From the IMG/VR virus record IMGVR_UViG_3300035156_000192, positions 1-51,138 of that record: a stretch of 51,138 nucleotides of DNA. One strand, 5' to 3'. The first letter of the stretch is position 1, and each line of letters opens with the position of its first letter. This document shows positions 2,309 through 18,694 of this stretch, piece by piece. Origin of the DNA: a virus. Made by a program: the position numbers and the translations under genes. The notes beneath the pieces were generated by a model. That model worked only from the letters and a program-made list of their open reading frames with translations. It was not told the origin of the DNA and did not search any database.

Positions 2309-2906
2309 CCCTTTGCCCGAACCGCACGACTTCGAAAATTGCCCTTACCCCGACATCATCAACCCCCTGGTCGATGTCGATCACAACGGCCGGTCGAACA
2401 TCGACGGCCTGACCAAGCGGCAACGCGACTTTTGCGAAGCCGCGCTCGATTTGATGCAACAGGGCGAGCACAATTGGAAACGGAAGGCCGCGCTGGCCGC
2501 CGGTTACGCCGAATCGTGGGCGGCCTCGGCGGCATGGCAGATGACCCGCAACGAAGCGGTTCAGCAATATATCGGGTCGCGGCTCGCCGGTGCCGCGTCT
2601 AAAAACAAAGTCGACCGTTCCTACGTCCTGCAAAAGGCGATGATCGGGGCCGAGCTGGCCGAGGCCAAGGGCGACTTGCGGTCGCTGTCGCGGTTCATCG
2701 ACATCGTCGCGAAGCATACCGACGTTTCGGCCTTCACGCCCGACGCCGTGCCAGGCGCACCGGGGGGCGGCGCTTCCGTCAACCTCCCGTTCGATATAGA
2801 CGCCTTGTCGACCGATGAAAAACGAACCTTCCTCGACCTTGTCCAGCGCGCGAGGGTTCGACCTTCCGTCGAACCTGGAGGAAGCGCTAAGGGCGTCGAT
2901 CCGTGA
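2301..2906 (+). CDS. terS: terminase small subunit
   Basis: 201 residues. The segment from about residue 37 (LTKRQRDFCEAAL, then KRKAALAAGYAESWAASAAW) matches the N-terminal helix-turn-helix of the Terminase_2 small-subunit family, which recognises phage DNA and regulates the large subunit. A helical middle (about 110-150) suits oligomerisation, and the acidic C-terminal part probably contacts the large subunit. It overlaps the large terminase gene by 92 bases, unusually long but common for coupled terminase genes. Packaging mode (headful or cohesive ends) cannot be read from the sequence. Confidence 0.85.
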   Translation: MPSPLPEPHDFENCPYPDIINPLVDVDHNGRSNIDGLTKRQRDFCEAALDLMQQGEHNWKRKAALAAGYAESWAASAAWQMTRNEAVQQYIGSRLAGAASKNKVDRSYVLQKAMIGAELAEAKGDLRSLSRFIDIVAKHTDVSAFTPDAVPGAPGGGASVNLPFDIDALSTDEKRTFLDLVQRARVRPSVEPGGSAKGVDP

Positions 2907-4548
2907 GGACGAACAGCGCGAGCAACGCGACACCCTGAACCGCGACGCCGAGGCGATCCGGCGCAAGTGCAAGTCGCTCTATCAGTTCGTGCAAGCCGCC
3001 TGGCCGATCGTCGAACCGGGAACGACGTTCGTCGGCGGGTGGGCGATCGAAGCGATATGCGACCACCTGGAGGCGGTCAGCCGCGGCGAAATCAAGCGGT
3101 TGCTGATTAACGTCCCGCCCCGCATGTCGAAGTCGACAATGGTCGCCGTGTTCTGGCCGGCCTGGGAATGGGGGCCGCTGAACAAGCCCCACCTTCACTA
3201 CCTCACCACGTCGTTTTCGGGTCCGAACATCATTCGCGACACCGGCAAAATGCGGTTGCTGGTCGAGTCCGAATGGTTTCAGCGGCTATGGGGCGACCAG
3301 GTCCAGCCGACGGACAAGTGGGGCGAAAAGCTCATCATCAATTCGGCCCGCGGCCAGCGCGAGGGTCGACCCTTTTCGAAGCTGACCGGCGGCGGCGGCG
3401 ATCGGCTGATATTCGACGATCCCCACGACACGGAGGCCGCGGAGTCGTCCGTCCAGCGCAACCGGGTCGTGAAGACGTTTCGCGAGGGCCTATCGGATCG
3501 ACTGCGCGACCCGAACAATTCTGTGATCGTCGGCGTCATGCAACGGCTTCACGAATCCGACGTGTCGGGCGAAATCCTTCGGCTTCGGTTGCCCTATGTG
3601 CACCTGAACCTACCGATGGAATTCGAGGCCACCCGCAAGGAAGGCAACCGCCTGGTCAGTGCCCGGTGTCGCACGTACATCGACGGCGAGCTGTTTTTCG
3701 AAGACCCTCGGCAGAACGAAGGCGACTTGCTGTTCCCCGAACGGTTCAGCCGCGCCACCGTCGAGGCGACGAAGATCGTTAAGGGCGCGTATGCGTGGGC
3801 GGGTCAGTACCAGCAACGGCCAGCCCCGCGCGACGGCGGCCTGTTCAAGCGCGAATGGTTCGAAGGCGACGGCAGCGAAGGGTCGAGCCGGATCATCACC
3901 GACGGCAAAATCCCGGCTTGCACCCGTTGGGTTCGGGGGTGGGATTTCGCCGCGACCGCGAAGACGGCCGGGACCGATCCCGACAACACGGCAAGCTGTC
4001 TTATGGGGCGGACCCGCGACGGCCGCTACATCATCGCCCACGCCGGCCAGTTCCAGGAAGGCCCCGCGCAGACCGAACGCAACGTGAAGGCCCTCGCCGA
4101 AAACGACGGCAAGGGGGTGACGATCCGCATTCCCGAGGACCCCGCGGCCGGCGGCAAATACCTGGTGCGCGACATGATCCGGCTTTTAGCGGGTTGGGTC
4201 GTGCGCGTGGTGCGCGTTGCCGGGTCGAAAGAGGCCCGCGCCGGCCCCCTGGCGACGCAAGCCGAGCACGGGAACGTTTACCTGGTCGCGGGCAATTGGG
4301 TGGCCGAATGGCTCGACACCGTATGCAATTTTCCGAATGCGCGTTACGACGACCTGGTGGACGCATCGGCCGACGCCTTCAATGAATTGTCGCCCGCGGC
4401 GAAGGACTCGCGCCACGCGGGGGCGGGGAACGATCGCAAGATGACCGGTCTAATCGAAGAAACACAGGACGCCGAGCTAGCGCGACGCATCCACGCCACG
4501 AACCGAAGCGCTATCAGTGCACCAGGCCGAGCAAGGGGCATTTTATGA
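2815..4548 (+). CDS. terL: terminase large subunit
   Basis: 577 residues; the packaging motor and DNA-cutting enzyme. The ATPase half has a deviant Walker A (NVPPRMSKST, residues 99-108) and a Walker B (RLIFDD, 197-202). The RNase H-fold nuclease half starts with GWDFAATAK, where D377 is the first catalytic acid, and ends with YDDLVDASADAF, supplying the final acids (D512/D513/D516). These are the landmarks of the Terminase_6 type. ATG 2815 lies well inside the small-subunit gene and no better in-frame start is visible, so the first 30 residues are the least certain. The stop overlaps the portal start by ATGA. Confidence 0.93.
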   Translation: MKNEPSSTLSSARGFDLPSNLEEALRASIREDEQREQRDTLNRDAEAIRRKCKSLYQFVQAAWPIVEPGTTFVGGWAIEAICDHLEAVSRGEIKRLLINVPPRMSKSTMVAVFWPAWEWGPLNKPHLHYLTTSFSGPNIIRDTGKMRLLVESEWFQRLWGDQVQPTDKWGEKLIINSARGQREGRPFSKLTGGGGDRLIFDDPHDTEAAESSVQRNRVVKTFREGLSDRLRDPNNSVIVGVMQRLHESDVSGEILRLRLPYVHLNLPMEFEATRKEGNRLVSARCRTYIDGELFFEDPRQNEGDLLFPERFSRATVEATKIVKGAYAWAGQYQQRPAPRDGGLFKREWFEGDGSEGSSRIITDGKIPACTRWVRGWDFAATAKTAGTDPDNTASCLMGRTRDGRYIIAHAGQFQEGPAQTERNVKALAENDGKGVTIRIPEDPAAGGKYLVRDMIRLLAGWVVRVVRVAGSKEARAGPLATQAEHGNVYLVAGNWVAEWLDTVCNFPNARYDDLVDASADAFNELSPAAKDSRHAGAGNDRKMTGLIEETQDAELARRIHATNRSAISAPGRARGIL

Positions 4549-6707
4549 GTCCGACCGATTATCGACTTGGGCGCGGATACCGCGAAAGCCTGGCCAAACA
4601 GGACGCCGGCCCGTTGCGCCAGGCGTCGCCGGCCGACGCCGGGCAAAAGGCCGACACGACCGGGACGATGTTCAGTCGGGCGTATGACGGGTTCGCGGCG
4701 GGTGCGTCATGGCTCGGCCAGCTCGCATTGATGAACGACAGCGTGTTGCAACGTGAGGGCACGCGCGACCTAAAGCTGTTCAATGCGTTGCTCGACGACG
4801 ACGTGGCCGCGACCGCCTTCGGTCAACGCCAGCTCGCGCTTGTAAAAGCCCCTTGGGTTGTCGAGCCGGGCGACCCCGACGACCCCCGGTCGGTCCTGGC
4901 GGCCGATGACCTTCGCGACATGATGAAGGTCGTCGGGTGGGATCGCGTTACCAAGTTGATGTTCTATGGCCGCTGGTTCGGATACGCGGTCGGCGAGTTC
5001 CTGTTCGAAATGCGCGTGCACAACGGTCGAACGATCGTATGGCTTCGCGACGTGGTCGTGCCCGATCGCAATTGGTTCCGGTTCACGAATGCCGGCGAGC
5101 TGCGGATGATAACGCCGAGCGACGCCGACGGCGTGCCCGTGCCGGCGAACCGGTTCTGGACCTATCGCACCGGTGCCACGCACGACTTCGAACACTACGG
5201 ACTCGGCCTCGCCCATTGGTGCTACTGGCCGATATGGTTCAAGCGCAACGTTATGCAGTTTTGGGCGCTGTATCTGGAGAAGTTCGGCCAGCCGACGGCG
5301 GTCGGATACTTCGAACCAGGGGCCGACCAAGACGAAATTGACAAGGTGCTGGCGGCCGCGAAGGCCATCGGCCAGGATTCGGCGGTCGCCTTCCCGGCCC
5401 CGCCGAGTTCGGTCGAGGGTGCCGGCGGCCCCGACCTTCGCCCCCACCTGATCGAAGCGCAACGAAGCGGCTCGGGTGCCGAGTCCTATGACACGTTCAC
5501 AAGCAAGATGGATGACGCCTTGCGCGGGATCATCATCGGCCAGCCTGGCACGTCGCGTTCGGCGTCGGATGGCCTGAACGGCAGTCAGGCCGAAGTTCAC
5601 GAAGGCGTCGCGGCGACGCTGGTGACGGCCGACAGCGACGAATTCCACGAGTCCTACAGCCGCACCGCGCCGGCATGGCTGACCTTGTGGAACCACGGCC
5701 CCGACGTTGCCGCGCCGATCGTGTCGCGCAACTTCGAACAGAAGGAAGGCGCGGACACAATCGCCGAGCGCGATACCAAATTGAAGGCCCTCGGGTGGGA
5801 TCGCACCGAAGACTCCTTCCGCGAAACCTACGGCGACGGATACGAAAAGGCCCCGCCGCCCCCGCCGCCCGTGATGCCAGGCGTGCGACCTGGTCGAGCT
5901 GGCCTTCCTGGTGCGGCGAACGACAACCCCGCCGACAAGCGGGTGGCCGTGTTCGCGGCTGGTGACCCTCGCCCCCTCTATATCTCGCGCAAGCTGCTGA
6001 ACGGCGCGGCCCTGCTGAAATGGGCGAAGGAACAGGGCTTCACGAACCTGGTCGACGCCGACGAATTGCACGCGACGATTTGCTACAGCCGCACGGCCGT
6101 CGACTGGTTCGCGATGCCGTCCGACTGGTCGAGCAATGACGACGGAAGCGCCACGGTCGAGCCTGGCGGCCCCCGCAAGGCCGAGCGCTTCGGCGACGAC
6201 GCGGTCGTGCTCATGTTCAAATATTCGCGGTTCGCCTGGCGGAACGAAGAATTGGTCGAGGCCGGCGCATCGCAGGACTATGACCCGTATCGGCCGCACG
6301 TCACCTTCGCCAAGGGCGAACAATCGGTCGACCTGGACAAGGTCGCGCCCTTCACGGACGCGCTCGAATTCGGTCCCGAGATATGGGAAACGCTCGACAC
6401 CGACCCGCTTCACGGGGCGCTTGCGCCGACGTTCAGCGCGGCCGAGCTGGACCGGATCGACGCTCTTGCGGCCGGCCTGGTCGCCGACACGGACCCTCTG
6501 TTTCAAGCGATGGGATCGGCAATGGCCTCGCGCGTGGCCGAGTTCGAAAGCGGCGGCATGCCGATGACCCCCGAAGCGTTCCGCGTGGCGATGCTCCAGA
6601 CCTTCGAAACGCTCCCGCTGGACAAGGTCGCGAAGCTGCTAACCGTCCCGATGGCCACCGCGCACGCCGCGGCCGCCGCTGGCGTCGAAGGATCGGTGAC
6701 CGCGTAA
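4545..6707 (+). CDS. Mu-like (DUF935) portal with embedded Acb1-like 2H domain
   Basis: 720 residues; forms the dodecameric portal through which DNA is packaged. Residues about 40-435 resemble the Mu gp29/DUF935 portal core. After a proline run (436-442), residues about 465-620 form a separate domain with two HxT motifs, HAT 509-511 and HVT 585-587. It begins RPLYISRKLLNGAALLKWAK and includes an FGPEIWETL segment. This is the pattern of 2H phosphoesterases and is closest to the phage anti-CBASS nuclease Acb1, which cleaves cyclic oligonucleotide immune signals. The helical tail after 626 resembles the normal DUF935 C-terminus, so the domain appears inserted. Portal role is clear; anti-CBASS activity is inferred from motifs only. 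Confidence 0.9.
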   Translation: MSPTDYRLGRGYRESLAKQDAGPLRQASPADAGQKADTTGTMFSRAYDGFAAGASWLGQLALMNDSVLQREGTRDLKLFNALLDDDVAATAFGQRQLALVKAPWVVEPGDPDDPRSVLAADDLRDMMKVVGWDRVTKLMFYGRWFGYAVGEFLFEMRVHNGRTIVWLRDVVVPDRNWFRFTNAGELRMITPSDADGVPVPANRFWTYRTGATHDFEHYGLGLAHWCYWPIWFKRNVMQFWALYLEKFGQPTAVGYFEPGADQDEIDKVLAAAKAIGQDSAVAFPAPPSSVEGAGGPDLRPHLIEAQRSGSGAESYDTFTSKMDDALRGIIIGQPGTSRSASDGLNGSQAEVHEGVAATLVTADSDEFHESYSRTAPAWLTLWNHGPDVAAPIVSRNFEQKEGADTIAERDTKLKALGWDRTEDSFRETYGDGYEKAPPPPPPVMPGVRPGRAGLPGAANDNPADKRVAVFAAGDPRPLYISRKLLNGAALLKWAKEQGFTNLVDADELHATICYSRTAVDWFAMPSDWSSNDDGSATVEPGGPRKAERFGDDAVVLMFKYSRFAWRNEELVEAGASQDYDPYRPHVTFAKGEQSVDLDKVAPFTDALEFGPEIWETLDTDPLHGALAPTFSAAELDRIDALAAGLVADTDPLFQAMGSAMASRVAEFESGGMPMTPEAFRVAMLQTFETLPLDKVAKLLTVPMATAHAAAAAGVEGSVTA

Positions 6708-7179: not shown

Positions 7180-8037
7180 ATGACCCGCGCCCCGCTACTG
7201 TTCGACGCCAGCGAACGAACGTTCAACCCGACCAGCTTGCGGGTCGACGCGTCCGACCTGGTCCGGTTCATCGAAGCTAAGGACCCCCGCGCAATTGAGC
7301 GGTGGAACGACCTCGGCCCTGACGAATACGCCCGCGCCTTCACGGCCGCCGGCACCGCGGGCCGCGGGGTCATCGACGACCTATATTATGCCTATGTCGA
7401 CACCCTGGAGCGCGGCGGCACCGAAGCCGACTTCGCTAAGGCCGTGATTCCGACGCTCCAGGAAAAGGGATGGCTAGGCGGCGACAAGCGCGCAATCGCC
7501 CCGCGGGTTCACCTGATTTACGATACGAATTTGCGCCTGGCGCGTGGTGCCGGCCAATGGGATCGCATTCAAAAGGGCAAGGCGGCGCTCCCGTACCTTC
7601 GCGCCATCACCGCGCAGGACACGCGAGTACGCCGGCCGCCGCATTCGAAGCATTCGGATCATCGGGCATGGGAAGGGATCATCCTTCCCGTGGATCATCC
7701 GTTCTGGACTCGGTATTGGGTGCCCCTCGGCTTCCGGTGCCGGTGCTCGATTATCCCGATGACCCGATCGCAGCTCGCGAAGTCGACGGGGATCACCAGC
7801 GACGCCGAGCTGGCGCAACGCGAAGCCCGGCTCGGCCCGCCCGTGTTCAGCGCACCAGGCGGCGGCGTGTTTCAGCAACTATCCGAGGCAGTCAGGATAG
7901 AAAACGATCGCGACGACCGGATGCCCGGCCTTCCGCCCCTCGACCTGTCGGCCGATCGCCTGGCCGCGCGCGACCTATGGTCGGTTGAAACGGCCGCCCT
8001 TGCCGTCACGACTCTGTTCAATCGCATATTCGGCTAA
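7180..8037 (+). CDS. Mu F-like minor head protein
   Basis: 285 residues. Residues about 110-192 carry the signature of the phage Mu protein F/SPP1 gp7 minor head family: RLARGAGQWDRIQ, ALPYLRAITAQDTRVR, a HxxWEGIILPVDHPFW block and PLGFRCRCSI. Proteins of this family bind the portal and are found in a few copies per head. Its place right after the portal gene is the usual one. The last 63 bases are overlapped on the other strand by the small gene at 7975-8220. Confidence 0.88.
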   Translation: MTRAPLLFDASERTFNPTSLRVDASDLVRFIEAKDPRAIERWNDLGPDEYARAFTAAGTAGRGVIDDLYYAYVDTLERGGTEADFAKAVIPTLQEKGWLGGDKRAIAPRVHLIYDTNLRLARGAGQWDRIQKGKAALPYLRAITAQDTRVRRPPHSKHSDHRAWEGIILPVDHPFWTRYWVPLGFRCRCSIIPMTRSQLAKSTGITSDAELAQREARLGPPVFSAPGGGVFQQLSEAVRIENDRDDRMPGLPPLDLSADRLAARDLWSVETAALAVTTLFNRIFG

Positions 8038-8285: not shown

Positions 8286-8699
8286 ATGGCCGCTTTTAAT
8301 AAGTTCAATTCGTTCGTCGAGGCCATCGCCGAGAAGGGTCATAACCTCCAGGCTGACACCCTTAAAGTGATGCTGACGAACACGGCACCAGTCGCAACGA
8401 ACACCGTCATTGCGAACATCGTCGAAATCGCGACCGGCAACGGTTACGCGGCCGGCGGCCCGCAAGCGACCGTGTCCAGCTCGGCGCAGACGGCCGGCGC
8501 TTATGCGTTGATCCTGGCCGACCTGGTCATCACCGCAGCCGGCGGTTCGATCGGTCCGGCGCGGTATGCGGTGCTCTACAATGCCACGGCCGGCTTGCTA
8601 ATCGGCTGGTGGGATTATGGCGCGGCCTTCACCCTGGCCAGCGGGGAAACCCTCACGGTCGACTTCGACAACGCCGCCGGTGTCCTGACCCTCGCATAA
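8286..8699 (+). CDS. conserved phage structural protein, unknown role
   Basis: 137 residues with a GAAGGA ribosome binding site. The opening (FNSFVEAIAEKGHNL, then LKVMLTNTAP) and the C-terminal YNATAGLLIGWWDYG with FTLASGETLTVDFD match a family often found next to tail-fibre genes of siphoviruses. Mostly beta by appearance. It is the first gene of the receptor-binding block; probably a virion protein. Confidence 0.7.
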   Translation: MAAFNKFNSFVEAIAEKGHNLQADTLKVMLTNTAPVATNTVIANIVEIATGNGYAAGGPQATVSSSAQTAGAYALILADLVITAAGGSIGPARYAVLYNATAGLLIGWWDYGAAFTLASGETLTVDFDNAAGVLTLA

Positions 8700-8709
8700 G
8701 GCCGAACCG

Positions 8710-8952
8710 ATGAAGCTCCCCACGCCCGAAAAACTGCGCGCCCGGTTCGCCGAGCTGGCCGCCGATCGCGAAGCCGTGATGAACGCCACCGCGCCGTTGC
8801 GTGCCGAGCGCGACGACTTGTCGGCCGACACCGCGGCACGGGTCGCGCGCATCGACGCGCAAATCGCCGAGCTGACCGAAGGGCTGTTCGACGCCGACAA
8901 CGAAGCCGCCATGATCGCCCGCGCGCTCGGCGGCAAAACGGCCCTCGAATAG
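8710..8952 (+). CDS. small coiled-coil protein
   Basis: 80 residues, almost wholly helical and charged (KLRARFAELAADREAVMNA, then ARIDAQIAELTEGL), consistent with a short coiled coil. The stop codon overlaps the next GTG start. Possibly an assembly factor for the neighbouring fibre proteins; function not known. Confidence 0.65.
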   Translation: MKLPTPEKLRARFAELAADREAVMNATAPLRAERDDLSADTAARVARIDAQIAELTEGLFDADNEAAMIARALGGKTALE

Positions 8953-9224
8953 TGGGCCTGGCGCGCAAAAAGGCCCCCACCGACGGCACCAGCGAAGCCG
9001 ATTTCGACCCCTTGCGCCCGACGCGCACGCCGTCGCGGGTCGACATGGAGTCCGAGCTGAACCGCGACCAGGCCCGCGCGTGGATCGCGAGCGCGCGGAA
9101 GTTCAACCTGACCGGCAAGGAAGTGGCCTTCCTGGCCGGTATGGAAGCTGACATGCTGGTCACCACCTGGTCGCCGACGGTGCGCGAGTGGAACCGCCTT
9201 AACGACCTGGCCGAAGGATATTAG
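8952..9224 (+). CDS. hypothetical protein in fibre block
   Basis: 90 residues from a GTG that overlaps the previous TAG. Polar N-terminus, then a helical region with ARAWIASARKFNLTGKE and a W-x-P-x-V-x-E-W segment. No membrane span or signal. It lies between coiled-coil and fibre genes, so a small virion or chaperone role is likely. Confidence 0.65.
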   Translation: MGLARKKAPTDGTSEADFDPLRPTRTPSRVDMESELNRDQARAWIASARKFNLTGKEVAFLAGMEADMLVTTWSPTVREWNRLNDLAEGY

Positions 9225-9227
9225 GGC

Positions 9228-9959
9228 ATGATCGCCGACCGCGTATCTGTGAACACGGCCACCGTCGGAACGGGCGCGGTCACCCTCGGCGCGGCCTTGC
9301 CCGGCTTCCGCAGCTTCGCGGCCGCCTTCCCCGCCCCCGCCACGACGACGGTCGATTATCTGATTGTCGAGGGCGTCAATTGGGAAACGGGAACGGGCGT
9401 GTTCACGCTCGCGACCGGCGTCCTGACCCGCACCCCCGTTGCCAGCTCGGCCGGCGGCGCGGCGATTGCGCTCGCCGGTGCGGCGGTCGTGTCGGTGTCC
9501 TACCTGTCGCGCACGAATGTTCCCGACTGGCCGGTGATGACCGTCGGCCGCAACGGCGGCGCGACCGCCTTTCAAACGCTACCCGCCGCGTTCACGACAT
9601 TGCAGCTAAACACCGCGCCGTCGATCGACACTCACGGCGGTTTCAGCACGTCGACTTACCTCTACACCGTGCCGGCCGGGCAAGATGGCGTTTACGATAT
9701 TCAGGGCAAGATTCGGCCGATCGACGCGACGGCCGCAAGCCTCGGGTTCGGGGTCGGTATCGACATCGCGAACCAGGACACGCCCGATTTCCTTTGGACC
9801 ACGACCAGCCCTAGCGCGCAGTCGGTAAGGCGGCACGGCAGCTACAATAGCCGGTTGATGCCGCTTGTCGCCGGCCAGCAAGTGCGGCTGTTCGGCTTCG
9901 CAGACGCCGGCAACCTGGCGATCGTCGGGGCCTCGCTAACCATCGCGCGGATTCGATAA
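9228..9959 (+). CDS. tail fibre protein with C1q-like C-terminal domain
   Basis: 243 residues. The N-terminal ~95 residues contain threonine/glycine-rich beta sequence (TVGTGAVTLGAALPGF, then GTGVFTLATGVLTRTPVAS) typical of phage proteins that describe an attachment domain. The C-terminal ~145 residues have features of trimeric C1q/TNF-like jelly rolls: YLYTVPAGQDGVYDIQGKI, then QQVRLFGFADAGNLAI. Such domains cap trimeric fibres and bind host surface sugars or proteins. One base separates it from the next gene. Confidence 0.65.
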   Translation: MIADRVSVNTATVGTGAVTLGAALPGFRSFAAAFPAPATTTVDYLIVEGVNWETGTGVFTLATGVLTRTPVASSAGGAAIALAGAAVVSVSYLSRTNVPDWPVMTVGRNGGATAFQTLPAAFTTLQLNTAPSIDTHGGFSTSTYLYTVPAGQDGVYDIQGKIRPIDATAASLGFGVGIDIANQDTPDFLWTTTSPSAQSVRRHGSYNSRLMPLVAGQQVRLFGFADAGNLAIVGASLTIARIR

Positions 9960-12620
9960 GTGAGCGGGTTCGGTCCCGTCGCCGCGGGGCCGGTTGCGGC
10001 CGTTTCCGCCGACGCAATCGTGGTCGCCGCCACGCCCATTGTCGCGGCCGATGTCGGCGCACCGTATCGCTACAATCAGGGTTACCCGACCCGCTATTTC
10101 CTCGGCGACACCTTTTCGTTCGCCTGGTCCGACAACAATGTCGATTACTCGCCGTCGAACGACAGCCGCGGTTTCCAGGGATCGACCCCGACCAGCAACA
10201 TTTCGTTCAATAGCTGGAGCGGGTCGCCGCCGCTGAACAACATCGTGGGAACGCTGGTCAACCGGATGCCGCAATTCGGCACCACGAACCAGCTCGGGAC
10301 CGACGGCGCGAGCTATAAAACTGGCGGCCTCTTGTCGCAGGGCGGCACGCTCTACTTGTGGACCAGCCGCCATAAGTACGGGTCGAACGCGAACGGCAAC
10401 ATTCAGACCGCGAACAACGCGCAGCTAATCAAGTCGACCGACAAGGGGGTGACCTGGTCGCCGCTCCCGCCGAGCACGGCCAACCCCTTCGCCGCGCCGA
10501 TGTTCACCGACACGAAGTTCAGCACGCCTTGGTTCGTCCAGTACGGCAAGGATGGCCAGGTTCCCGACGTGCACAACTCGGCGCTTTATGCCTATGCGCT
10601 GTCGAATAACGGGAGCTGGAACAACGGCGATTCAATGGTCATCGGCCGTTGTCTTCGCTCGGCGCTTCCGAACCTGTCGGCCGCCGATTGGTCGTTCTAT
10701 CAGGGCGGCGACGGCATGCTGGACGCGTCGTGGGGCGCGCTCGCGACCGCCGCGACGATCGTCAATGATCCGAAAAAGGTCGCCGCGAACGGCGCGCAGT
10801 ATATCCCGGCGACCGGCCGCTATGTAATGTTTCAGTGGCACTATCCGTTCGTCGTTGCCGCGCAAGACAACGTGTATGGCGGCCCCGATCCGAAGACCGG
10901 GAACACGGTTTGGTCGGTGTATGAAAGCCCGACGCCGTGGGGTCCCTGGACCAAGATTCAAACGATCAAGTGGAACCTGCTAGGCGTCTATAACGGCAAC
11001 GTCATTCCGCGCAGCGTGTCGGTCGACGGCGGGAGTAACATCGTTGTCGCGGCCTCGGGTGACTACGGCGAAAGCGGCGCGACCGAAGGTTACTACACGC
11101 TGATTCAGATCCCCGTCGCACTCCGCACGACGGGCGCGCTTCCCGCCGAGCCGGTTTGCACGGCCGACCCCGTCATCACCGGCCTAATCAAGCCCGGCGA
11201 AGTGGTGACGTGTTCGCCCGGCACCTGGACGAATAGCCCGCACAGCTTCCTTTACCAGTGGCGGAACCAGGCCGGGCAATGGCTCTACCTGTCGAACAAG
11301 CCGACCTATTTGCAGCATCCCGGCGACGGCATCCCGCAATGCGATGTCGTGGCGATCAACGCGGCCGGCACCAGCGAGATTAAGCGGGTGTCGCACCTTG
11401 GCCAGGCCGAGCCGGCCGACCCGTCGGTTATCCGCGTCGGCTTCGACCTATCGCGCAAGGCTTTCCCGGTCGTGTTCTCGGCCGATTATCTGACCATCAC
11501 GCAAACGGGTGACGGGTTCCAGATGACGCCGACCGTCTATAAGTCGGACGGCGCTTGGTATGGCGAAATGACGGTCAGTCAGGGGCCGGGGATCGCGATC
11601 GGCTTCGCGAACACGCTGTCGCCGCTGGTCCAGGCATATGCCGGGCAAGACGCGAATTCGATCGGCATGTATCAGGACGGATACGCCGGCAACAATGTGA
11701 TCGGTTACCCCGCGCTAGTCGGGTCGTATGGCGCTGGCGCTGTCATCCGGTGGGCGATGAAGCCCGCGCTCGGGAAGGTATGGCTGGCGGTCAACGGCGG
11801 GGCCTGGAATGGCGACCCCGTCGCCGGCACCGGCGGCCTTGCGATCCCCGTCGCCGGTGGCGTCGCCCCTGTCGCGTACACCGACGCGCCCGGCGCTTCG
11901 GTCACCGCGAACAACGGATACGTCGCGACGACCTACGCGAAGCCGACCGGCTTTTCGACGCTCGACAGCCCGGCGACGAACAAGTCGCTGGTGGCGGCGC
12001 GCGGCGTGGTCACCGTCACCGGCCGGCCGTCGAACCTGGTCCGCGGGTTCCAGCTCGCCGCCTCGCGCGGGACCTTCACCGCGACCGGCCAGGCGGTCGG
12101 CACGTCGTCGGCTCGGGTGCTCCCGGCCGCGCCTGGTGCGTTCGTCATCACCGGCCAGGCGATGACCTTCCGCCGGTCCTATGCCCTGGCCGCCAGCTCG
12201 ACCGCCGTCGCGTTCCAGGGGCGCGCGGCAACCCTGATCGTCGGCAAGCGGCTACAGCTCGCCGCCGGGTCGTTCGCCCTCACGGGCCTGGCCATGACGA
12301 TGAACAAGCTCGGCGCGCTGTCGGTCCTGGCCGCCACCGGCGCGTTCGCGATGACCGGCCAGGCCGCCACCTTCCGCACTGACCGCCGCCTGGTCGCCGA
12401 TCGCCGCGACGTGGTGCTGACCGGGCGCGCGATGACCTTCCGGCGAGGGCTGAAAATGACGGCCGCGCCGGGCGCTTTCGCCTTCACTGGCAACGCGACG
12501 GCCTTCGCTCGCGTGTTCTTCGGCGTGCCCCCGGCGTCGATGACGATCCGGCTATATGACGACGGGCCGCGAGTCGTTACACTACGCGACAGCGGGGCGC
12601 GCTCCGTCACACTTTTCTAG
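9960..12620 (+). CDS. large tail-spike-like protein: Asp-box propeller, Ig-like, SPRY-like, C-terminal repeats
   Basis: 886 residues from GTG 9960, directly after the previous stop. Residues about 50-390 look like a sialidase-type beta-propeller: an Asp box STDKGVTW sits near 160 and DVHNSALYAYA and RYVMFQWHYPF segments follow. Residues about 400-480 form an Ig-like domain (PVITGLIKPGEVVTCSPGTW). Residues about 490-655 are SPRY-like (GAVIRWAMKPALGKVWLAVN). From about 670 to 850 a repeat of roughly 24 residues, AAxGxFxxTGxAxxF, recurs. Probably a virion protein acting on or binding surface polysaccharide; catalytic residues cannot be assigned by eye. Confidence 0.72.
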   Translation: MSGFGPVAAGPVAAVSADAIVVAATPIVAADVGAPYRYNQGYPTRYFLGDTFSFAWSDNNVDYSPSNDSRGFQGSTPTSNISFNSWSGSPPLNNIVGTLVNRMPQFGTTNQLGTDGASYKTGGLLSQGGTLYLWTSRHKYGSNANGNIQTANNAQLIKSTDKGVTWSPLPPSTANPFAAPMFTDTKFSTPWFVQYGKDGQVPDVHNSALYAYALSNNGSWNNGDSMVIGRCLRSALPNLSAADWSFYQGGDGMLDASWGALATAATIVNDPKKVAANGAQYIPATGRYVMFQWHYPFVVAAQDNVYGGPDPKTGNTVWSVYESPTPWGPWTKIQTIKWNLLGVYNGNVIPRSVSVDGGSNIVVAASGDYGESGATEGYYTLIQIPVALRTTGALPAEPVCTADPVITGLIKPGEVVTCSPGTWTNSPHSFLYQWRNQAGQWLYLSNKPTYLQHPGDGIPQCDVVAINAAGTSEIKRVSHLGQAEPADPSVIRVGFDLSRKAFPVVFSADYLTITQTGDGFQMTPTVYKSDGAWYGEMTVSQGPGIAIGFANTLSPLVQAYAGQDANSIGMYQDGYAGNNVIGYPALVGSYGAGAVIRWAMKPALGKVWLAVNGGAWNGDPVAGTGGLAIPVAGGVAPVAYTDAPGASVTANNGYVATTYAKPTGFSTLDSPATNKSLVAARGVVTVTGRPSNLVRGFQLAASRGTFTATGQAVGTSSARVLPAAPGAFVITGQAMTFRRSYALAASSTAVAFQGRAATLIVGKRLQLAAGSFALTGLAMTMNKLGALSVLAATGAFAMTGQAATFRTDRRLVADRRDVVLTGRAMTFRRGLKMTAAPGAFAFTGNATAFARVFFGVPPASMTIRLYDDGPRVVTLRDSGARSVTLF

Positions 12621-12629
12621 GGCGGCGCA

Positions 12630-13016
12630 ATGGTGATTCCGACTTCCGCGACGAAGCTCCCGCAGGACCTGGACCCGTTTGACGTGGATTGGTTCGGGGT
12701 CGACATTTCGCGCGGCGTCCAGGGGGTGACCCCCTTCCCGATCCTTGCGCCTGGCGAAAACGTCGCCGCGTTCACGGTCCAGCCGCAACCCGAGGCGGTC
12801 GACGCCGGGCTGATTATCATGTCGGGCAACGGCTACCCGCAAGCCGCCATCGTCGGCACGACCCTGTCGATTTATCTCGCCGTCGCCGAGGCGAAACAGA
12901 GCAATAGCAAGTTCGACGTGGGAATGTTGCTTGGCATCGAATTGAGCATCACGACCGACGCCGTTCCGCCGCGCAAGAAACAGCGCACGTTCACCGTTCT
13001 AATCATCAATAAATAG
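12630..13016 (+). CDS. small beta-rich virion protein candidate
   Basis: 128 residues, nearly all beta-type sequence, with ISRGVQGVTPFPILAPGENV and a C-terminal KKQRTFTVLIINK. Similar small proteins accompany tail fibres in other siphoviruses, possibly as trimerising or attachment partners. No signal peptide. Function inferred from context only. Confidence 0.6.
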   Translation: MVIPTSATKLPQDLDPFDVDWFGVDISRGVQGVTPFPILAPGENVAAFTVQPQPEAVDAGLIIMSGNGYPQAAIVGTTLSIYLAVAEAKQSNSKFDVGMLLGIELSITTDAVPPRKKQRTFTVLIINK

Positions 13017-13030
13017 GAGCGACCCGACCA

Positions 13031-15094
13031 ATGACCCGACAAGCCTTTCGCCTGGTGGGGGTCGGCCTTGCCATCTCCACCGCGGCCGCCTTCGGCCCCC
13101 TACTGACCGCGCCAATCGTCGCGCAGACGATCGCCGGTTGTGGCACGACAGCCATCCCGAAAACCGACCTGAACAGCATCGAACGGCTAACCGCCGGGAT
13201 CGTGTGTCGCGAAAAGGCCATCACCAGCGGCAACGCCGGGATCGCGGTTCGTCGCGACCGGGTGAAGGCCCTCACGCCGGCCCCCACGCCCACGCCAGCC
13301 CCGACGCCAGCCCCGACGCCAGCCCCGACGCCGGCACCGACCCCCACGCCCACCCCGACCCCCGTCGTGGTGACCTGGACGCCATGCGCGAAGGAAGACG
13401 CGGTTTGCACCCCGCCGGCCCCCGCCCTGGTGCGCTACGGCGTCGGCGACAAGTTCCGCTATCTGACCGCCTCGGCCCCCGTGACGTGCGGCAACAAGGT
13501 TTTCGGCGACCCGATCGTCGGCACCGTCAAGTCGTGTTCCTATTCGCTGAACGCGCCCGTTCCCGCCGGCACCGCGGCCGCGCCGGCTGTCGTGGTATCG
13601 CCCACCCCGACGCCCGCGCCGACTCCTTCGCCGACCCCCACGCCCACGGTCGGCGTCGTGCCGGCGACCCGCATCGGCGTGAACGTCGCCCCGTCGAGCT
13701 ATTACAACACCGAACGCATTTATGTGAATTTGGTCGAGGGTAGCGGCGGCTGGAAAGACTCGACCGCGGGGTGGGGATCGACCGCGGCGGAAAAGCTGAA
13801 CGCGGCCGGCTTCCCGATCGTGGAAGGGCAATGGATGCCCCTTGTGCCGCCGCGCGAGCTTTGGGCGGGTGGGTCGGCGACGATCGCGTGCACCTGGTCG
13901 GGTGACGGCCAGTTCAGCGTCGATGGCATGGCGCGGGGTTGGCTCGCCGCAAGCGGCCAGTCGTTCACCGTGTCGGGGTTCGATCGCAGCAAGGGCGGGT
14001 TCCCCGCCATCCGCATTTCGCCCAAGGGGATGACGACCGCGAAGCCGCTGTCGTCGCTCGATTGCCGGGAAGCCGGCGTGCAAGCTGTCGGTCGGTTCGA
14101 ACAGAAGTTCGTCGACGACATGAAGCCGTTCGCGGTGCTGCGATTCCTGGACTGGAGTAGCACGAACGGCAATCCGGCAAGTGTGACGTGGGCGACGCGC
14201 GCGACGCCCGACCACGGCGGGAGCGACGGCACCCCCCTGGAATATATGATCGACCTGGCGAACGCCGCGGGAACCGACGCCTGGTTCACGATCGCCTACA
14301 ATGCCGACGCCGATTATGTTCGCCGGGCGGGCGAGCTGGTGCGGGATCGCCTGGCACCCGGTCACCGGGGATATTTCGAGCTGTCGAACGAAGTGTGGAA
14401 TTTCGCCTTTTTGGTCGCTCGCCAGGCTGTCGAGGAAGGCGCGAAACAGGTCCCGCCCCTGTCGAGCGACTACTATTCGAACAACCCGCTTCGGTACGCG
14501 CAGAAGACAATCGAATTTCACAAGGTCCTAACCCCCGTGTTCGCGGCGAACCCGTCGCGCCTGGTGCGCGTCGTGGCGTCACAGAACGCGAATTCCTGGA
14601 CCGTCCGCACGATCCTGGCGTTTCCCGGCCTGGTCGATTGGGTCGACGCGCTCGCGACCGCGCCTTACTTCGGCGGCGACATATTCAACGCCCCGAACGA
14701 CACGGCCACCCTGGCCGACCTTCCCGCCGCCTTCGCCCGCCTGGAGGCGGGGCGCGTAAACTCGATTGCGAAGGCCCTCGAAAACAAGGCCGCGGCCGCC
14801 AAGTACGGCAAGCGATTCATCGCTTACGAAGCCGGGCAACATATCGTCGTGAAGCCCGGCCCCCTGGCCGAGGTTGCCGCGGCCATGCAGCGGTCGCCGT
14901 TGATGGGCGAGGCTTATGACCGATACCTGGCCGACTGGCGCGCAAAGATCGGCGACGACCTGGTGATATACGCGGCGACCGGGACAATCTCTCAATATGG
15001 TTCGTGGGGGATTCGTGAGTACGCCGGCCAGCCGATCGCCGAGACGCCGAAGCGGCGCGCGGTGCTCGACGCCATCGCGGCGACCGCGAAGTGA
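13031..15094 (+). CDS. exported glycoside-hydrolase-like protein
   Basis: 687 residues with a good ribosome binding site (AGGAG). Residues 1-31 are a Sec signal peptide (basic start, long hydrophobic core, likely cut after PIVA). Two proline-threonine tracts (81-111 and 191-206) flank a small four-cysteine domain (115-172). Residues about 212-680 look like a clan GH-A (beta/alpha)8 hydrolase: YFELSNEVWNF places the acid/base in the usual Asn-Glu pair (N453-E454), and FIAYEAGQH offers E600 as nucleophile. It may degrade capsule or exopolysaccharide. A signal peptide is unusual for a virion part, so secretion by the infected cell is possible. Confidence 0.75.
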   Translation: MTRQAFRLVGVGLAISTAAAFGPLLTAPIVAQTIAGCGTTAIPKTDLNSIERLTAGIVCREKAITSGNAGIAVRRDRVKALTPAPTPTPAPTPAPTPAPTPAPTPTPTPTPVVVTWTPCAKEDAVCTPPAPALVRYGVGDKFRYLTASAPVTCGNKVFGDPIVGTVKSCSYSLNAPVPAGTAAAPAVVVSPTPTPAPTPSPTPTPTVGVVPATRIGVNVAPSSYYNTERIYVNLVEGSGGWKDSTAGWGSTAAEKLNAAGFPIVEGQWMPLVPPRELWAGGSATIACTWSGDGQFSVDGMARGWLAASGQSFTVSGFDRSKGGFPAIRISPKGMTTAKPLSSLDCREAGVQAVGRFEQKFVDDMKPFAVLRFLDWSSTNGNPASVTWATRATPDHGGSDGTPLEYMIDLANAAGTDAWFTIAYNADADYVRRAGELVRDRLAPGHRGYFELSNEVWNFAFLVARQAVEEGAKQVPPLSSDYYSNNPLRYAQKTIEFHKVLTPVFAANPSRLVRVVASQNANSWTVRTILAFPGLVDWVDALATAPYFGGDIFNAPNDTATLADLPAAFARLEAGRVNSIAKALENKAAAAKYGKRFIAYEAGQHIVVKPGPLAEVAAAMQRSPLMGEAYDRYLADWRAKIGDDLVIYAATGTISQYGSWGIREYAGQPIAETPKRRAVLDAIAATAK
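13271..13369 (+). repeat. proline-threonine linker repeat
   Basis: Tandem 12-bp units of the type GCCAGCCCCGAC encode a repeated APTP linker within the hydrolase-like gene; a shorter copy at 13601-13648 encodes a second PT linker. Such linkers separate domains in exported polysaccharide-active enzymes. Slippage-prone, so copy number may vary among relatives. Confidence 0.8.
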
Positions 15095-15390
15095 CCGTCG
15101 TTCGCGGCACCGTAAACAACGGCTGGTCGAGCGACGTTGACTTGCCGTTCTACAAGGGCGCGGCCGGCGCGCAGTTCGGCCCCGTGGGGCAAACGGACCC
15201 CGCAAGGGTGCGCTTCGGCTATGCCGGCGCGATCGTGCGGGACATGGTCGGGGCGAAGGGAACGGCCACCGTCCCCGACCCCCTGGACCCCGACAACATG
15301 ATGACGGTCGCCGTGACGGTGACCGATGCGACCAAGAGCGATACCACGAAGGGCTTCGTGACCTTCACGGCCACAATCGACCGCGACTAG
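15091..15390 (+). CDS. small protein ending the fibre block
   Basis: 99 residues from a GTG overlapping the stop of the hydrolase-like gene. Beta-rich, with WSSDVDLPFYKGAAGAQFGP and a C-terminal GFVTFTATIDRD. No family recognised. It is the last rightward gene before the leftward cassette; the two convergent genes overlap by 4 bases. Confidence 0.6.
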   Translation: MTVVRGTVNNGWSSDVDLPFYKGAAGAQFGPVGQTDPARVRFGYAGAIVRDMVGAKGTATVPDPLDPDNMMTVAVTVTDATKSDTTKGFVTFTATIDRD

Positions 15391-15644
15391 AGCCTGGCCA
15401 GCTCGGCGGGGGTGCACTTTCGGGCACTCCCGCTAGGCGGTTGCCACCGTGGCAACCAGCGTTTCATTCCCCGCACCTGGCGGCATTGCCAGCAATCCAC
15501 CGTCGGCGGGGCCGGCTCCAGGACTTCGGCCCGCGCGCCGCATTCGCACCCGTAGCACGCGACCGGCTGGCGGTTCGGATCGTCCGACGGCTCGGGTTTG
15601 GCCTCCAGCTCGGCCGCGAATTGGGCGAACATATTGTCGGTCAT
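15387..15644 (-). CDS. small zinc-ribbon protein
   Basis: 85 residues. CYGCECGARAEV and CWQCRQVRG give two CxxC-type pairs, fitting a zinc ribbon. The C-terminus is basic. Last gene of the leftward cassette, overlapping the convergent neighbour by 4 bases and the upstream gene by 4 bases. Nucleic-acid or protein binding is likely; exact role unknown. Confidence 0.65.
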   Translation of the reverse strand: MTDNMFAQFAAELEAKPEPSDDPNRQPVACYGCECGARAEVLEPAPPTVDCWQCRQVRGMKRWLPRWQPPSGSARKCTPAELARL

Positions 15645-15847
15645 GTCGAGTGCCAGAAACAGCGGTCAGGGTCGGTGATGTCGCAACAGCCGCAATGATC
15701 GTCCGAGTCCCATTCGACTTCATGGCCGTCGTCGGTCCAGGCGATATGGGGGCCGGCATGGTTGACCGCCAGCGGGCACCCGCGCAGCTCGCCGAGCCGG
15801 TTTTCGAACGGCCGCCTGGCCGGGGGCAGGACATGACACGCGGTCAA
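15641..15847 (-). CDS. small Cys/His-rich protein
   Basis: 68 residues from a TTG start that overlaps the previous stop as TTGA. The C-terminal half has DDHCGCCDITDPDRCFWH, a likely metal site, after a HVEVEW-like acidic strand (DGHEVEWDSD). No recognised family. Start choice rests on coupling, as elsewhere in this cassette. Confidence 0.55.
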   Translation of the reverse strand: MTACHVLPPARRPFENRLGELRGCPLAVNHAGPHIAWTDDGHEVEWDSDDHCGCCDITDPDRCFWHST

Positions 15848-16194
15848 CGCACGTCGGCCAGGTCGGGGTCGCTCGGGTCAACGCCGTTCGCCTCGGCCAT
15901 CGCCCGATAATTGTCGAACAGCTCCAGGCCGCCGCTTCGGTCGAGCCGGTCGAGCCGGTGGAATGAATAGGCCAGGCGAACGGCAAGGTTATGATCGGCC
16001 CCGCGCTCCAGGAACCCGGCGCACGCCATCGCGTCGCCGTCGGAAGTTTTGTGGCAAGTGAATATGCCGAACGACATATCGCGCGCGGTGGCGGCCAGCT
16101 CGCGAAACCGGTCGGGTCGAAACTCGCCTGGCGGGACATCGGTTCGCCAGGGGCAATTCGCGCACGGCCGGCGCGTAGCGGGAAGGTCGTTCAC
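15844..16194 (-). CDS. DUF6283 family protein
   Basis: 116 residues from a GTG overlapping the RNase H stop. The N-terminal RRPCANCPWRTD motif, followed by GIFTCHK and ACAGFL, is characteristic of DUF6283, a small cysteine-containing family of unknown function common in actinobacterial and proteobacterial phages. The cysteines (CxxC plus two single) could bind a metal or cluster. Role in infection unknown. Confidence 0.75.
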   Translation of the reverse strand: MNDLPATRRPCANCPWRTDVPPGEFRPDRFRELAATARDMSFGIFTCHKTSDGDAMACAGFLERGADHNLAVRLAYSFHRLDRLDRSGGLELFDNYRAMAEANGVDPSDPDLADVR

Positions 16195-16784
16195 GCCCCG
16201 ACCTCCCGAGCCTGGCGAAGGCGTCGGCTTTCCTGTTCGCCGATCATCGCTTCGTGTTGCTCTTTGCGCTCGCGCCGCCGCTGTCGGCCCGCCACCTGTT
16301 CGACTAAGGCGTTGTAACCGGCCGGCTTGCGACCGTCGCGAATGGCGCTGCAAAGATGATCGCACCGGATATTATGGATCGCGTGCGGGTCCGCGCTGTC
16401 TAGCCGCTGGTGCCCCCTTACCCATTTCGCCCGCAACGCGATCCCGTGTCGCTCGGCCAGGTCCAGGACATAGCCGACGGCCTTTCCGATCGTCGGACAC
16501 TTCGCGTTGCGCGCCGCGCCGTTGATCCGGCCGACCGCGCCGCGATTATCCGAACGCATCGTGACCAGGTCGCCGCCCTCCACAAGGCCGTTGATGCGCG
16601 CGAAGTGAAGGGCGTTCGCCATTGCCGCGGCCTCGACAGCGGTCGACGACGGGAAGTTCCCGCGCAGCGCGCCGGCCGATTCGTGACGCTCATCACCGCG
16701 CAGCACGACGCACGCCCACGCGCCCCGGCCGCCCTTCACAATGCTGGCGTCGGTGTAAATGTCGACGTTCACCCGACCAGCCAT
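16191..16784 (-). CDS. ribonuclease HI
   Basis: 197 residues. Residues 1-150 are an RNase HI domain: YTDAS (D12), STAVEAAA (E51), RSDN (D79) and the final acid in RCDHL (D142), with WVRGHQ supplying H125. The enzyme cuts RNA in RNA-DNA hybrids and could remove primers or R-loops during phage DNA replication. A basic helical tail (about 155-197, GRQRRRERKEQHEAM) is extra to the normal fold. Overlaps the gene on each side. Its presence in an otherwise uncharacterised cassette suggests the cassette is expressed during replication. Confidence 0.88.
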   Translation of the reverse strand: MAGRVNVDIYTDASIVKGGRGAWACVVLRGDERHESAGALRGNFPSSTAVEAAAMANALHFARINGLVEGGDLVTMRSDNRGAVGRINGAARNAKCPTIGKAVGYVLDLAERHGIALRAKWVRGHQRLDSADPHAIHNIRCDHLCSAIRDGRKPAGYNALVEQVAGRQRRRERKEQHEAMIGEQESRRLRQAREVGA

Positions 16785-17149
16785 TCGAGTTCGGCGCGAA
16801 TGCCGGGTCGAAGGTCCGTGGCGATGCGCTTCGCGACCATGTCGGCGACAAGCCCCGACACGTAGTCGGCCGCCCCCTCCCGGCGTTCGGTGCCGCGGAA
16901 TTCATACACGACGCGCGCGACCCGGTCGCCGACTTGCACGTCGAACCCCTGTCGCACGGTATAGGGCGCGACATCGAACGACCCGTCGCGGAACGACGAC
17001 ACCGAAAGGTCGGGACTGTCGGGAAGGTGCACGACATAGCCGGCCCTCCGCAACAGCTCGGCCGCGTTGGCAATCTCGCGCTCGGCGGCCTCACGCTCGG
17101 CGCGTTTCCATTCCGGTTCGCGCCATACCGTTTCGGGGGTCCGCGTCAC
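16769..17149 (-). CDS. hypothetical protein
   Basis: 126 residues from a GTG overlapping the stop of the small membrane protein upstream. Charged helical N-terminus (EWKRAEREAAEREIANAAEL), then a mixed alpha/beta region with GYVVHLPDSPDLSV and VQVGDRVARVVYEFRG. No membrane span. Overlaps the RNase H start by 16 bases. Function unknown. Confidence 0.65.
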   Translation of the reverse strand: MTRTPETVWREPEWKRAEREAAEREIANAAELLRRAGYVVHLPDSPDLSVSSFRDGSFDVAPYTVRQGFDVQVGDRVARVVYEFRGTERREGAADYVSGLVADMVAKRIATDLRPGIRAELEWLVG

Positions 17150-17313
17150 CAGTGCACCAGCCCGCCGGTGACGGCGGCCATGATGGCGGCCCCGATGACC
17201 GCGGCCACTAGCAACAGGATTCCGCAACCCTCGGCCGTCGTGATGCGCTCCAGGGCGGCGTCGGCGGGGTCGGGCTGTTCGGTGTAAGGCTCGCGCCCGC
17301 GATAGTCGGTCAT
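17146..17313 (-). CDS. small membrane protein (55 residues)
   Basis: 55 residues with one hydrophobic span (GILLLVAAVIGAAIMAAVTG, about 31-50) after a polar N-terminus containing YRGREPYTEQPDPAD. Coupled to the lipoprotein before it (ATGA) and to the gene after it (GTGA). Too short for family assignment. The pairing with a lipoprotein gene invites comparison with two-component envelope proteins, but nothing proves it. Confidence 0.6.
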   Translation of the reverse strand: MTDYRGREPYTEQPDPADAALERITTAEGCGILLLVAAVIGAAIMAAVTGGLVHW

Positions 17314-17588
17314 CGTGTTTCGCCTTCGATCATGCCGCGAATGCGGGCGGTTGAGTCTTCAAGAGCGGTTTCGGCGGCCAGCTTGCACGACACCTTCGCC
17401 AGGCGGGCGCGCAGCGGATTCGAGCGACCCTCGACCTGGTCGGCCAGGACACCGTTTTTCAGCTCGGCGCACTTCGCCGCGGTCGCGGCCGCCTGGCGGG
17501 ATAGGTCGCTTTCCTCGGCCACCTGTCGGCAACCCGACATTGCGAGGGCCGCCATTAGCAGCGCGCCACCTAATCGAACGGTCATCAT
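17310..17588 (-). CDS. lipoprotein
   Basis: 92 residues beginning with two methionines. MTVRLGGALLMAALAMSGC is a lipoprotein signal with lipobox AMSGC (cysteine at about residue 20). The mature part is helical and charged (DLSRQAAATAAKCAELK) with two further cysteines. First gene of an internal transcription unit: the 17-bp element at 17602 fills the 30-base gap upstream and runs straight into the ribosome binding site. Possible roles are superinfection exclusion or a spanin-like function. Confidence 0.72.
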   Translation of the reverse strand: MMTVRLGGALLMAALAMSGCRQVAEESDLSRQAAATAAKCAELKNGVLADQVEGRSNPLRARLAKVSCKLAAETALEDSTARIRGMIEGETR

Positions 17589-17601
17589 CGGGTCACCCTC
17601 T

Positions 17602-17618
17602 ATTCGTTGTGCGCGAAT
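17602..17618 (-). promoter_or_regulatory. 17-bp ATTCG-N7-CGAAT element
   Basis: Perfect copy of the genome-wide inverted repeat (read leftward: ATTCGCGCACAACGAAT). It sits between the stop of the gene at 17619 and the ribosome binding site of the lipoprotein, where an operator overlapping the start of transcription would be expected. Confidence 0.75.
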
Positions 17619-17825
17619 TCATTCGGCCCGTTTGGCCAGGCTGTCAATGACGATCGCGCGCGGCCTGGCCTGGACGTGCTCGATGTCGACGGCGGCCGAC
17701 CTGGCCACGGTGCGCGCGTGCGCCTCGGCGGCGGGCACGTTGTCGAACGGCAGATTGCCCCACTGGCCGGGAAGCGACAGTCGGACGCCGGGAAGGTGCC
17801 GGTGCGTGGTCAGAATGAATTTCAC
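17619..17825 (-). CDS. hypothetical protein (68 residues)
   Basis: 68 residues from a GTG overlapping the upstream stop. Opens KFILTTHRHLPGVRLSLPG and has ARTVARSAAVDIEHV near the middle; mixed alpha/beta and soluble. Last gene of the upper half of the cassette before the internal regulatory element. No family recognised. Confidence 0.6.
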   Translation of the reverse strand: MKFILTTHRHLPGVRLSLPGQWGNLPFDNVPAAEAHARTVARSAAVDIEHVQARPRAIVIDSLAKRAE

Positions 17826-18037
17826 GACTCGACCACCGCGCCGCAGACATCGCATTCGAGTTCGATCGCCAAGCACGGCCCGCAAGGCCCCCTGTCGCCG
17901 TAGCATTCACACCCCGGCGCGGACTCGGGATAGTGCATGTCGCCGATGCAAGGCTTGCCGTCGAACAGGGCGGCGGGGTTGCCGCTTGTGATCCGGTTGC
18001 ACCGGTCACCGTCATTCATTCCGATTGGTTCGGGCAT
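17822..18037 (-). CDS. small cysteine-rich protein
   Basis: 71 residues. Start 18037 is favoured because AAGGA lies 6 bases upstream; an ATG at 18019 would give the ATGA overlap typical of this cassette. Eight cysteines in the C-terminal half (CECYGDRGPCGPC and CDVCG among them) indicate one or two metal sites. Function unknown. Confidence 0.6.
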   Translation of the reverse strand: MPEPIGMNDGDRCNRITSGNPAALFDGKPCIGDMHYPESAPGCECYGDRGPCGPCLAIELECDVCGAVVES

Positions 18038-18204
18038 GTCCATTCCTTCGGCTCGCCGGCCTCGCGCCACGCGCGAATCGCCGGAAGGCTGGTCGTGTCG
18101 ACGCCCGCCCGGTGGGCGCGCGCTATGATGTTCTGACCCGGCGGCAACAGCTTGAACACGTTGCGGCCGAAGGTCGACGGGAGGCGGAAGGGGCGGCGGT
18201 TCAC
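18016..18204 (-). CDS. hypothetical protein (62 residues)
   Basis: 62 residues from a GTG overlapping the upstream stop. Basic N-terminus (NRRPFRLPSTFGRNVFKLLP) followed by NIIARAHRAGVDTTSLPAI, which could be a short DNA-binding helix pair, but no clear helix-turn-helix is assignable. Coupled on both sides. Confidence 0.55.
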   Translation of the reverse strand: MNRRPFRLPSTFGRNVFKLLPPGQNIIARAHRAGVDTTSLPAIRAWREAGEPKEWTCPNQSE

Positions 18205-18473
18205 CGCGCGCCAGGGCTGAACACGGCCAGGCCGCCGTTCGACCGGGCCGCCGCGACCAGCTCGCCCGCGACATCGTTCACCAGCTCGCGACGCTCGGCC
18301 GCAAGCCGCTCGGCCCCTTCGTATGCGTCCAGGGCATCGGCCGCCGTGGTCAGGGCGTGCGCCGCGACCGCCGCCTGGTGCGCCAGCTCCCGGTCGCCCG
18401 CCATCCGAAGCCCCACGGCGATGTTCGCCGAGCGCTTGGCCTGTTCGCGCATGCTGTCGGTTAGGCGACTCAT
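18201..18473 (-). CDS. helical hypothetical protein (90 residues)
   Basis: 90 residues, nearly all helical and alanine-rich (LTDSMREQAKRSANIAVGLR, then HALTTAADALDAYEGAERL), probably a coiled-coil or helical bundle. Coupled by ATGA to the gene before it and by GTGA to the one after. Confidence 0.65.
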   Translation of the reverse strand: MSRLTDSMREQAKRSANIAVGLRMAGDRELAHQAAVAAHALTTAADALDAYEGAERLAAERRELVNDVAGELVAAARSNGGLAVFSPGAR

Positions 18474-18658
18474 GCCGCGACCAGCTCGAAAAAGGCATCC
18501 TTGCCGATGCCGTTGGTTTGCGTGGCGACGACCCCGGCCGCGCCCGCGTCGATCGACGAAACGCGGGTCAGCTTCACGGGGCTGCCGTCGGCATCCTTGC
18601 CGGTGATTGTCATCCCCGCGCCAGTGCGGCGCGCGGTCCAGTTCGTGATTCGTTGCAT
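18470..18658 (-). CDS. small conserved phage protein (62 residues)
   Basis: 62 residues. ATG 18658 is preceded by GGAGG at good spacing. QRITNWTARRTGAGMTITG, then a GSPVKLTRVSSI strand, resemble small beta-rich proteins found in many phage early regions without known function. A hairpin (18678-18694) separates it from the PP-loop gene upstream. Confidence 0.65.
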   Translation of the reverse strand: MQRITNWTARRTGAGMTITGKDADGSPVKLTRVSSIDAGAAGVVATQTNGIGKDAFFELVAA

Positions 18659-18677
18659 GTTCGGTTCCTCCAGTGGT

Positions 18678-18694
18678 GCGGGCACCATGCCCGC
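18678..18694 (-). promoter_or_regulatory. intercistronic hairpin in the leftward cassette
   Basis: GCGGGCA pairs perfectly with TGCCCGC around a 3-base loop, between the PP-loop gene and the gene at 18470. There is no T-run downstream in the leftward direction, so an RNA-processing or partial-attenuation role is more likely than full termination. Confidence 0.35.

Follow-up and report, generated by a model that had tools for sequence, protein, structure and literature searches.

The question raised by this locus is why a phage portal gene should contain a domain resembling Acb1, an enzyme family in which cleavage of CBASS signals has been shown for Acb1 itself and nine further homologues (PMC9117128), and whether that domain is likely to act as an anti-CBASS factor. 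The window analysed here is a whole stretch of 51,138 nucleotides, a 51-kb IMG/VR viral record. An earlier note, made from the letters alone, had read one of its genes as a DUF935 portal containing an Acb1-like 2H phosphoesterase, and this reading is supported by the PF06074 and PF23474 profiles, the predicted fold and the conservation of residues. Judged from sequence and structural models, the gene probably encodes a Mu-type portal subunit in which a flexibly tethered Acb1, predicted to be active against CBASS, is placed between core and tail.

The portal gene and its surroundings

The portal gene comprises 720 codons in an open reading frame (4545-6707, plus strand, as are all window genes and domains below unless stated), the start of which is overlapped by the end of the large terminase gene (2815-4548; PHROG 38, E 1.4e-77). 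It is preceded further upstream by the small terminase (2301-2906; PHROG 51) and followed by a Mu F-like minor head protein (7180-8037; PF04233, PHROG 220). This order, terS-terL-portal-Mu F, is that of the Portal_Mu / DUF935 family, to which the window portal belongs. The head maturation protease (19490-20560; PHROG 976, E 5.2e-35), a cement protein and the major capsid protein (21075-22040; PF09950, PHROG 264) are encoded at 19.5-22 kb of the window. The spacing is unusual, with about 10 kb (8286-18700) including ORFs of 886 and 687 aa between the Mu F-like gene and the protease and capsid genes. A gene of the PAPS-reductase family with weak matches to DndC, SspD and BrxP lies on the minus strand at 18718-19461.

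Within the portal, the Mu-type (DUF935) core comprises residues 77-430 (4773-5834; PF06074, E 7.2e-69; PHROG portal, E 1.2e-62), and in a fold search the core of the full-length model matches the portals of JBD30 and Mu. The core is followed by a proline-rich linker (residues 440-474, 5862-5966; composition PPPPPPVMPG), the Acb1 domain (residues 477-620, 5973-6404), a second linker (residues 620-630, 6402-6434) and a helical C-terminal tail (residues 632-711, 6438-6677), in which the full-length model has helices at 632-669, 676-689 and 692-711. Both linkers are modelled with low confidence (pLDDT < 50), so that the domain is flanked by such segments on either side. The extent of 465-620 originally given for the domain is slightly early, residues 440-474 being linker. 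The further claim that an ordinary portal-family tail resumes after the domain agrees with the alignment to two insert-free portals (L182 and L173), in which the core passes directly into a tail continuous with that of the window portal. The tail sequence as sole query found zero relatives. In the closest relative (L002, 4001-6151), an in-frame stop lies a few codons short of the matched end of the portal tail.

The domain as a member of the Acb1 family

The domain matches PF23474 with 114.7 bits (E 3.7e-33) against a curated cut-off of 27, a score so far over the threshold that the match is not due to chance. The PDB sequences that match best are the portal of Pam3, which covers the Acb1 part (E 2.7e-27), FBB1 Acb1 (E 1.9e-5) and the portal of JBD30, which covers the core. 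When the domain was modelled in isolation from a 70-sequence alignment (pLDDT 91.3), comparison of its predicted fold with Acb1, as the earlier note had proposed, recovered the 2H/Acb1 fold, with FBB1 Acb1 (7t26) as top PDB match (E 3.5e-8; TM 0.62 by query, 0.71 by target). Apo and product-bound FBB1 Acb1 head the ranking, followed by the BCSR5 phage phosphodiesterase and then by 2H enzymes of the LigT type, and the best named matches in a library of predicted virus structures are likewise annotated "Anti-CBASS protein Acb1". The phosphodiesterase of Burkholderia phage BCSR5 (9q2g, 9q2y) shares the Acb1 fold and is known with open and closed lid, but it is a free enzyme with an identity of 15-16%. 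The Pam3 entry 8hds is missing from the fold matches of the domain model, which fits an unmodelled domain in that structure; alternatively, the entry was perhaps not part of the searched library. In the full-length model (pLDDT 70) the core matches portals and the insert matches Acb1, with an only moderate pTM of 0.44 which does not place the domain relative to the ring.

In Acb1, catalysis depends on H44, T46, H113 and T115, while Y12 stacks on the base and E141 reads the adenine (PMC9117128). The counterparts in the window are Y479 (5979-5981) for Y12, H509-A-T511 (6069-6077) for the first HxT motif, H585-V-T587 (6297-6305) for the second and E612 (6378-6380) for the glutamate which contacts adenine N6, the two motifs being placed by alignment. 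Both HxT motifs had been located rightly at 509-511 and 585-587 in the earlier note, and the two segments which it had singled out in addition, an opening RPLYISRK and FGPEIWE, are present and correspond to the invariant columns of Y479 and E612. The tyrosine is present in every fusion, 24/24 of Mu type and 174/174 of PF06381 type, and the glutamate is found in 24/24 and 173/174, respectively, while the exact tetrad is kept in 22 of the 24 distinct Mu-type fusions.

Over a broader set of 159 loci the tetrad reads HTHT or HTHS in 157, although these loci had been fetched partly with patterns containing the first HxT motif. The genome-scan subset, for which the search patterns contained neither motif, is therefore the fair measure of conservation, and there HTH(T/S) is kept in 61 of 62. 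The second histidine, which lies outside every search pattern, is kept throughout; the same holds for the position of the glutamate, which is retained in 208/209 with one gap. A pattern for the HxT motifs at the nucleotide level was uninformative. Neither a fold unlike 2H enzymes nor a general loss of the motifs in relatives, either of which would have spoken against the enzyme, was found; the one exception is a Sphingomonas Mu-type fusion (L100, 4726-6714, plus strand), which has a tyrosine at the position of H509 and is possibly a dead copy.

By the features tested, the window domain is a member of the Acb1 family, its activity being a prediction from sequence and model. It shares the 2H fold, the tetrad, the stacking tyrosine and the adenine-contacting glutamate with Acb1 of T4-like phages (PF23474; FBB1 7t26/7t27; Hobbs et al. 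2022, PMC9117128). The T4 protein, however, is a small free enzyme with W147 in a C-terminal lid, whereas the window Acb1 is built into a portal, is followed by a tail and has no tryptophan at the expected place. Counted in a window of positions after the glutamate rather than from structure, the lid tryptophan is present in 2/24 Mu-type fusions versus 93/105 PF06381 fusions. The lid of Mu-type fusions is possibly of other make-up, and since its tryptophan is mostly missing, substrate range or rate may differ.

This leads to the best surviving alternative, an active 2H phosphoesterase whose main substrate is something else, such as RNA 2',3'-cyclic ends, tRNA fragments or other defence nucleotides. 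LigT and CPDase folds match as well, PHROG 755 labels its members "RNA ligase", and the absent lid tryptophan could alter specificity. Yet Acb1 tops both the profile and the fold rankings, the adenine-contacting glutamate is kept, and the nine homologues of Acb1 that were assayed cleaved CBASS signals (PMC9117128), which makes another main substrate unlikely.

Gain, loss and exchange of the domain

The insert can be followed in sister loci. Two portals with Acb1 (L178 and L176) and two without it (the above-mentioned L182 and L173) share about 97% identity across some 576 residues, and at the DNA level 490 bp in L178 replace 22 bp in L182 between flanks of 95% and 90% identity. Exchange of the domain is seen between L176 and L178, where the cores are 98.8% identical and the Acb1 domains only 67%. 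The reverse is found among PF06381 portals: L130 and L131 are 95% identical in Acb1 and 44% identical in the core, and the Acb1 stretch common to L024 and L029 spans 522 bp with 83% identity, the remaining portal being too diverged for DNA alignment. Across 14,365 PF06381 pairs, the identities of Acb1 and core are correlated with r 0.73, compared to 0.94 when a core segment of similar length takes the place of Acb1, and a difference of more than 0.4 occurs in 76 pairs for Acb1 versus 0 for this control segment; as the pairs are not independent, these values are descriptions and not p-values. In the Mu-type set by itself, a difference above 0.25 is seen in just 2 of 276 pairs.

Comparison of the sequences thus establishes Acb1 in the relatives as an optional cassette which is exchanged independently of the portal sequence. 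Other gaps are also present in the L178 and L182 loci, and given these, part of the exchange may be ordinary phage mosaicism. The proposal that immune evasion is coupled to the portal, already made in the earlier note, can fairly be drawn from these sequences and gains strength from the cassette behaviour. Sister portals that differ in the presence of the insert amount to a natural test of bolting evasion onto an essential structural gene, and they also bear on the place within the infected cell at which CBASS has to be countered.

The same pairs weigh on a second alternative, in which the Acb1 fold is a structural relic that serves as portal decoration or assembly element and has lost its role in immune evasion. 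Such a reading would suit a domain which belongs to a structural protein, and it could call on the lid tryptophan mostly lost in Mu-type fusions and on the first histidine lost in L100. Against this stand the near invariance of tetrad, tyrosine and glutamate over about 200 sequences and the flexible linkers on both sides of the domain. In addition, near-identical portals lacking the domain and swaps between portals imply that Acb1 is not required for assembly, and a relic is considered decidedly improbable.

In L287 (5391-6656, minus strand), an Acb1-lacking portal is 95% identical to the Acb1-bearing portal of L290 and is followed by a membrane-protein ORF which looks abortive-infection-like by eye; this position is possibly a hot spot for defence genes.

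Carriers of Acb1 among head proteins

Fusions of Acb1 were found on three kinds of head protein. In PF06381 portals, such as those of phiPSA1, Rhizobium Kleczkowskavirus phages, Aminobacter phage Erebus and Pam3, Acb1 is at the very C-terminus; in PF06074 portals (31 ORFs, 24 distinct) it lies between core and tail; and in L074 (4869-5909, plus strand) it stands ahead of an XkdF-type prohead protease (PF14550). The number of residues downstream of the domain accordingly forms two clear peaks in a histogram, at 0-10 and about 80-100. Acb1 has been described as relatively rare and present in certain phage groups (PMC11722364), but at least 500 viral contigs matched the portal-borne form, so that portal proteins may be the main home of Acb1. 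The domain is far from universal among portals fetched by their core: 44/80 of PF06381 type are without it, and among Mu-type portals it is nearly confined to those at least about 45% identical to the window. A single origin of Mu-type Acb1 is neither rejected nor demonstrated (AU p 0.27).

The statement of the earlier note that Acb1-like domains occur with portal-type proteins is confirmed by Pam3 (8hds) and the PF06381 portals. In the Pam3 cyanophage portal, as in phiPSA1, RHEph04 and Erebus, portal and Acb1 form one chain like in the window. The window nevertheless falls outside this Phage_portal_3 + Acb1 type, which has a PF06381 core and Acb1 as the last domain, whereas the window has a PF06074 core and a tail of about 90 residues after Acb1; the second motif is HIS in Pam3 and HVT in the window. 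The fusion itself is already in public records and a PDB entry. A search of the open literature, with subscription papers mostly outside its reach, found no paper discussing it. We would call new the position of Acb1 in Mu-type portals, the existence of sister portals which either bear or lack the insert, the exchange of the domain and the protease fusion.

Several further loci deserve mention. A PF06381 portal with Acb1 in L080 (3483-6218, plus strand) continues for another 246 residues without a Pfam match. The separate Acb1 ORF of phage Yong-M3-232 (L005) was rejected as evidence of modularity: the portal frame enters the start of the domain and the sister phage JY40 (L016) is intact, so a frameshift is likelier than a true split gene. 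The label "prohead protease" on the Acb1 of a Ruegeria phage (L014) is probably an annotation error, as the ORF is of plain Acb1 size; an Edwardsiella phage Acb1 ORF labelled likewise (L013) has 200 aa.

A model for portal-borne Acb1

The domain would cleave cyclic di- and trinucleotides resembling 3'3'-cGAMP on the 3' side of adenosine, and loss of these signals to a portal-borne enzyme would blunt CBASS. It could act in the cytoplasm, while part of free subunits or of portals under assembly, or once it is released with the tail. Fusion to an essential, always-expressed head gene would provide every head-assembling phage with a dose of enzyme without a promoter of its own. The earlier argument that the portal is produced abundantly late in infection, at the peak of CBASS signalling, does not hold up well, because related portals are dodecamers (PMC11915804, PMC11445458) and the activity of T4 Acb1 comes early, at about 15 min (PMC11722364).

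Release of the domain is made conceivable by portals of the same core and family (JBD30 and Mu; 8rka, 9khx; PF06074), which lack Acb1 and whose chain end is missing from the models. Mu portal loses its last 124 residues, which has been ascribed to the head protease (PMC11915804), and the chain of the JBD30 portal in the PDB library holds just 405 of 526 residues. As the Acb1 insert lies beyond this truncation point, the domain is possibly set free by processing of the tail, with the head maturation protease of the window as a possible processor.

A wider reading is more tentative. Head proteins, namely at least two portal families and one prohead protease, might be general carriers of an exchangeable anti-CBASS cassette which is swapped or dropped as hosts change and is tethered where heads are built. 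Tethering at head assembly could be relevant in view of a CBASS sensor which is able to respond to the prohead protease (Richmond-Buccola et al. 2024, as cited in PMC12409349).

A possible link to host CBASS

A relation to host CBASS was sought in 299 Rhizobiaceae genomes using one SMODS cyclase Pfam family and ignoring kinship; this family-matched sample replaced a class-wide cyclase background of 3/240, which was discarded as control because of its many very small genomes. Acb1 is present in 16/299 genomes, the cyclase in 34/299 and both in 5, which corresponds to cyclases in 5/16 Acb1-bearing versus 29/283 other genomes (one-sided Fisher p 0.025), or p 0.07 when the genome of L132, with a cyclase beside the prophage portal, is dropped. 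The more frequent cyclase in Acb1-bearing Rhizobiaceae genomes is a weak association and supports a role against CBASS only to that extent. A SMODS cyclase was found in 0/50 viral records, as expected for phages.

These two results, together with the further insertions and deletions nearby, would suit an insert that is a neutral passenger of phage mosaicism without CBASS effect in the natural host, but such a passenger should decay in an essential gene, and the active site has instead been retained among deeply diverged sequences and in three kinds of head protein, so that this explanation is very improbable indeed.

The predicted anti-CBASS function is preferred here. In the Mesorhizobium locus L132 (1363-2864, minus strand), a CBASS-like operon made up of a SMODS cyclase (1e-112 to PADLOC Cyclase) and a 2TM effector (3e-59) lies divergent from terS of a terS-terL-portal(Acb1) cluster, and both may belong to one prophage.
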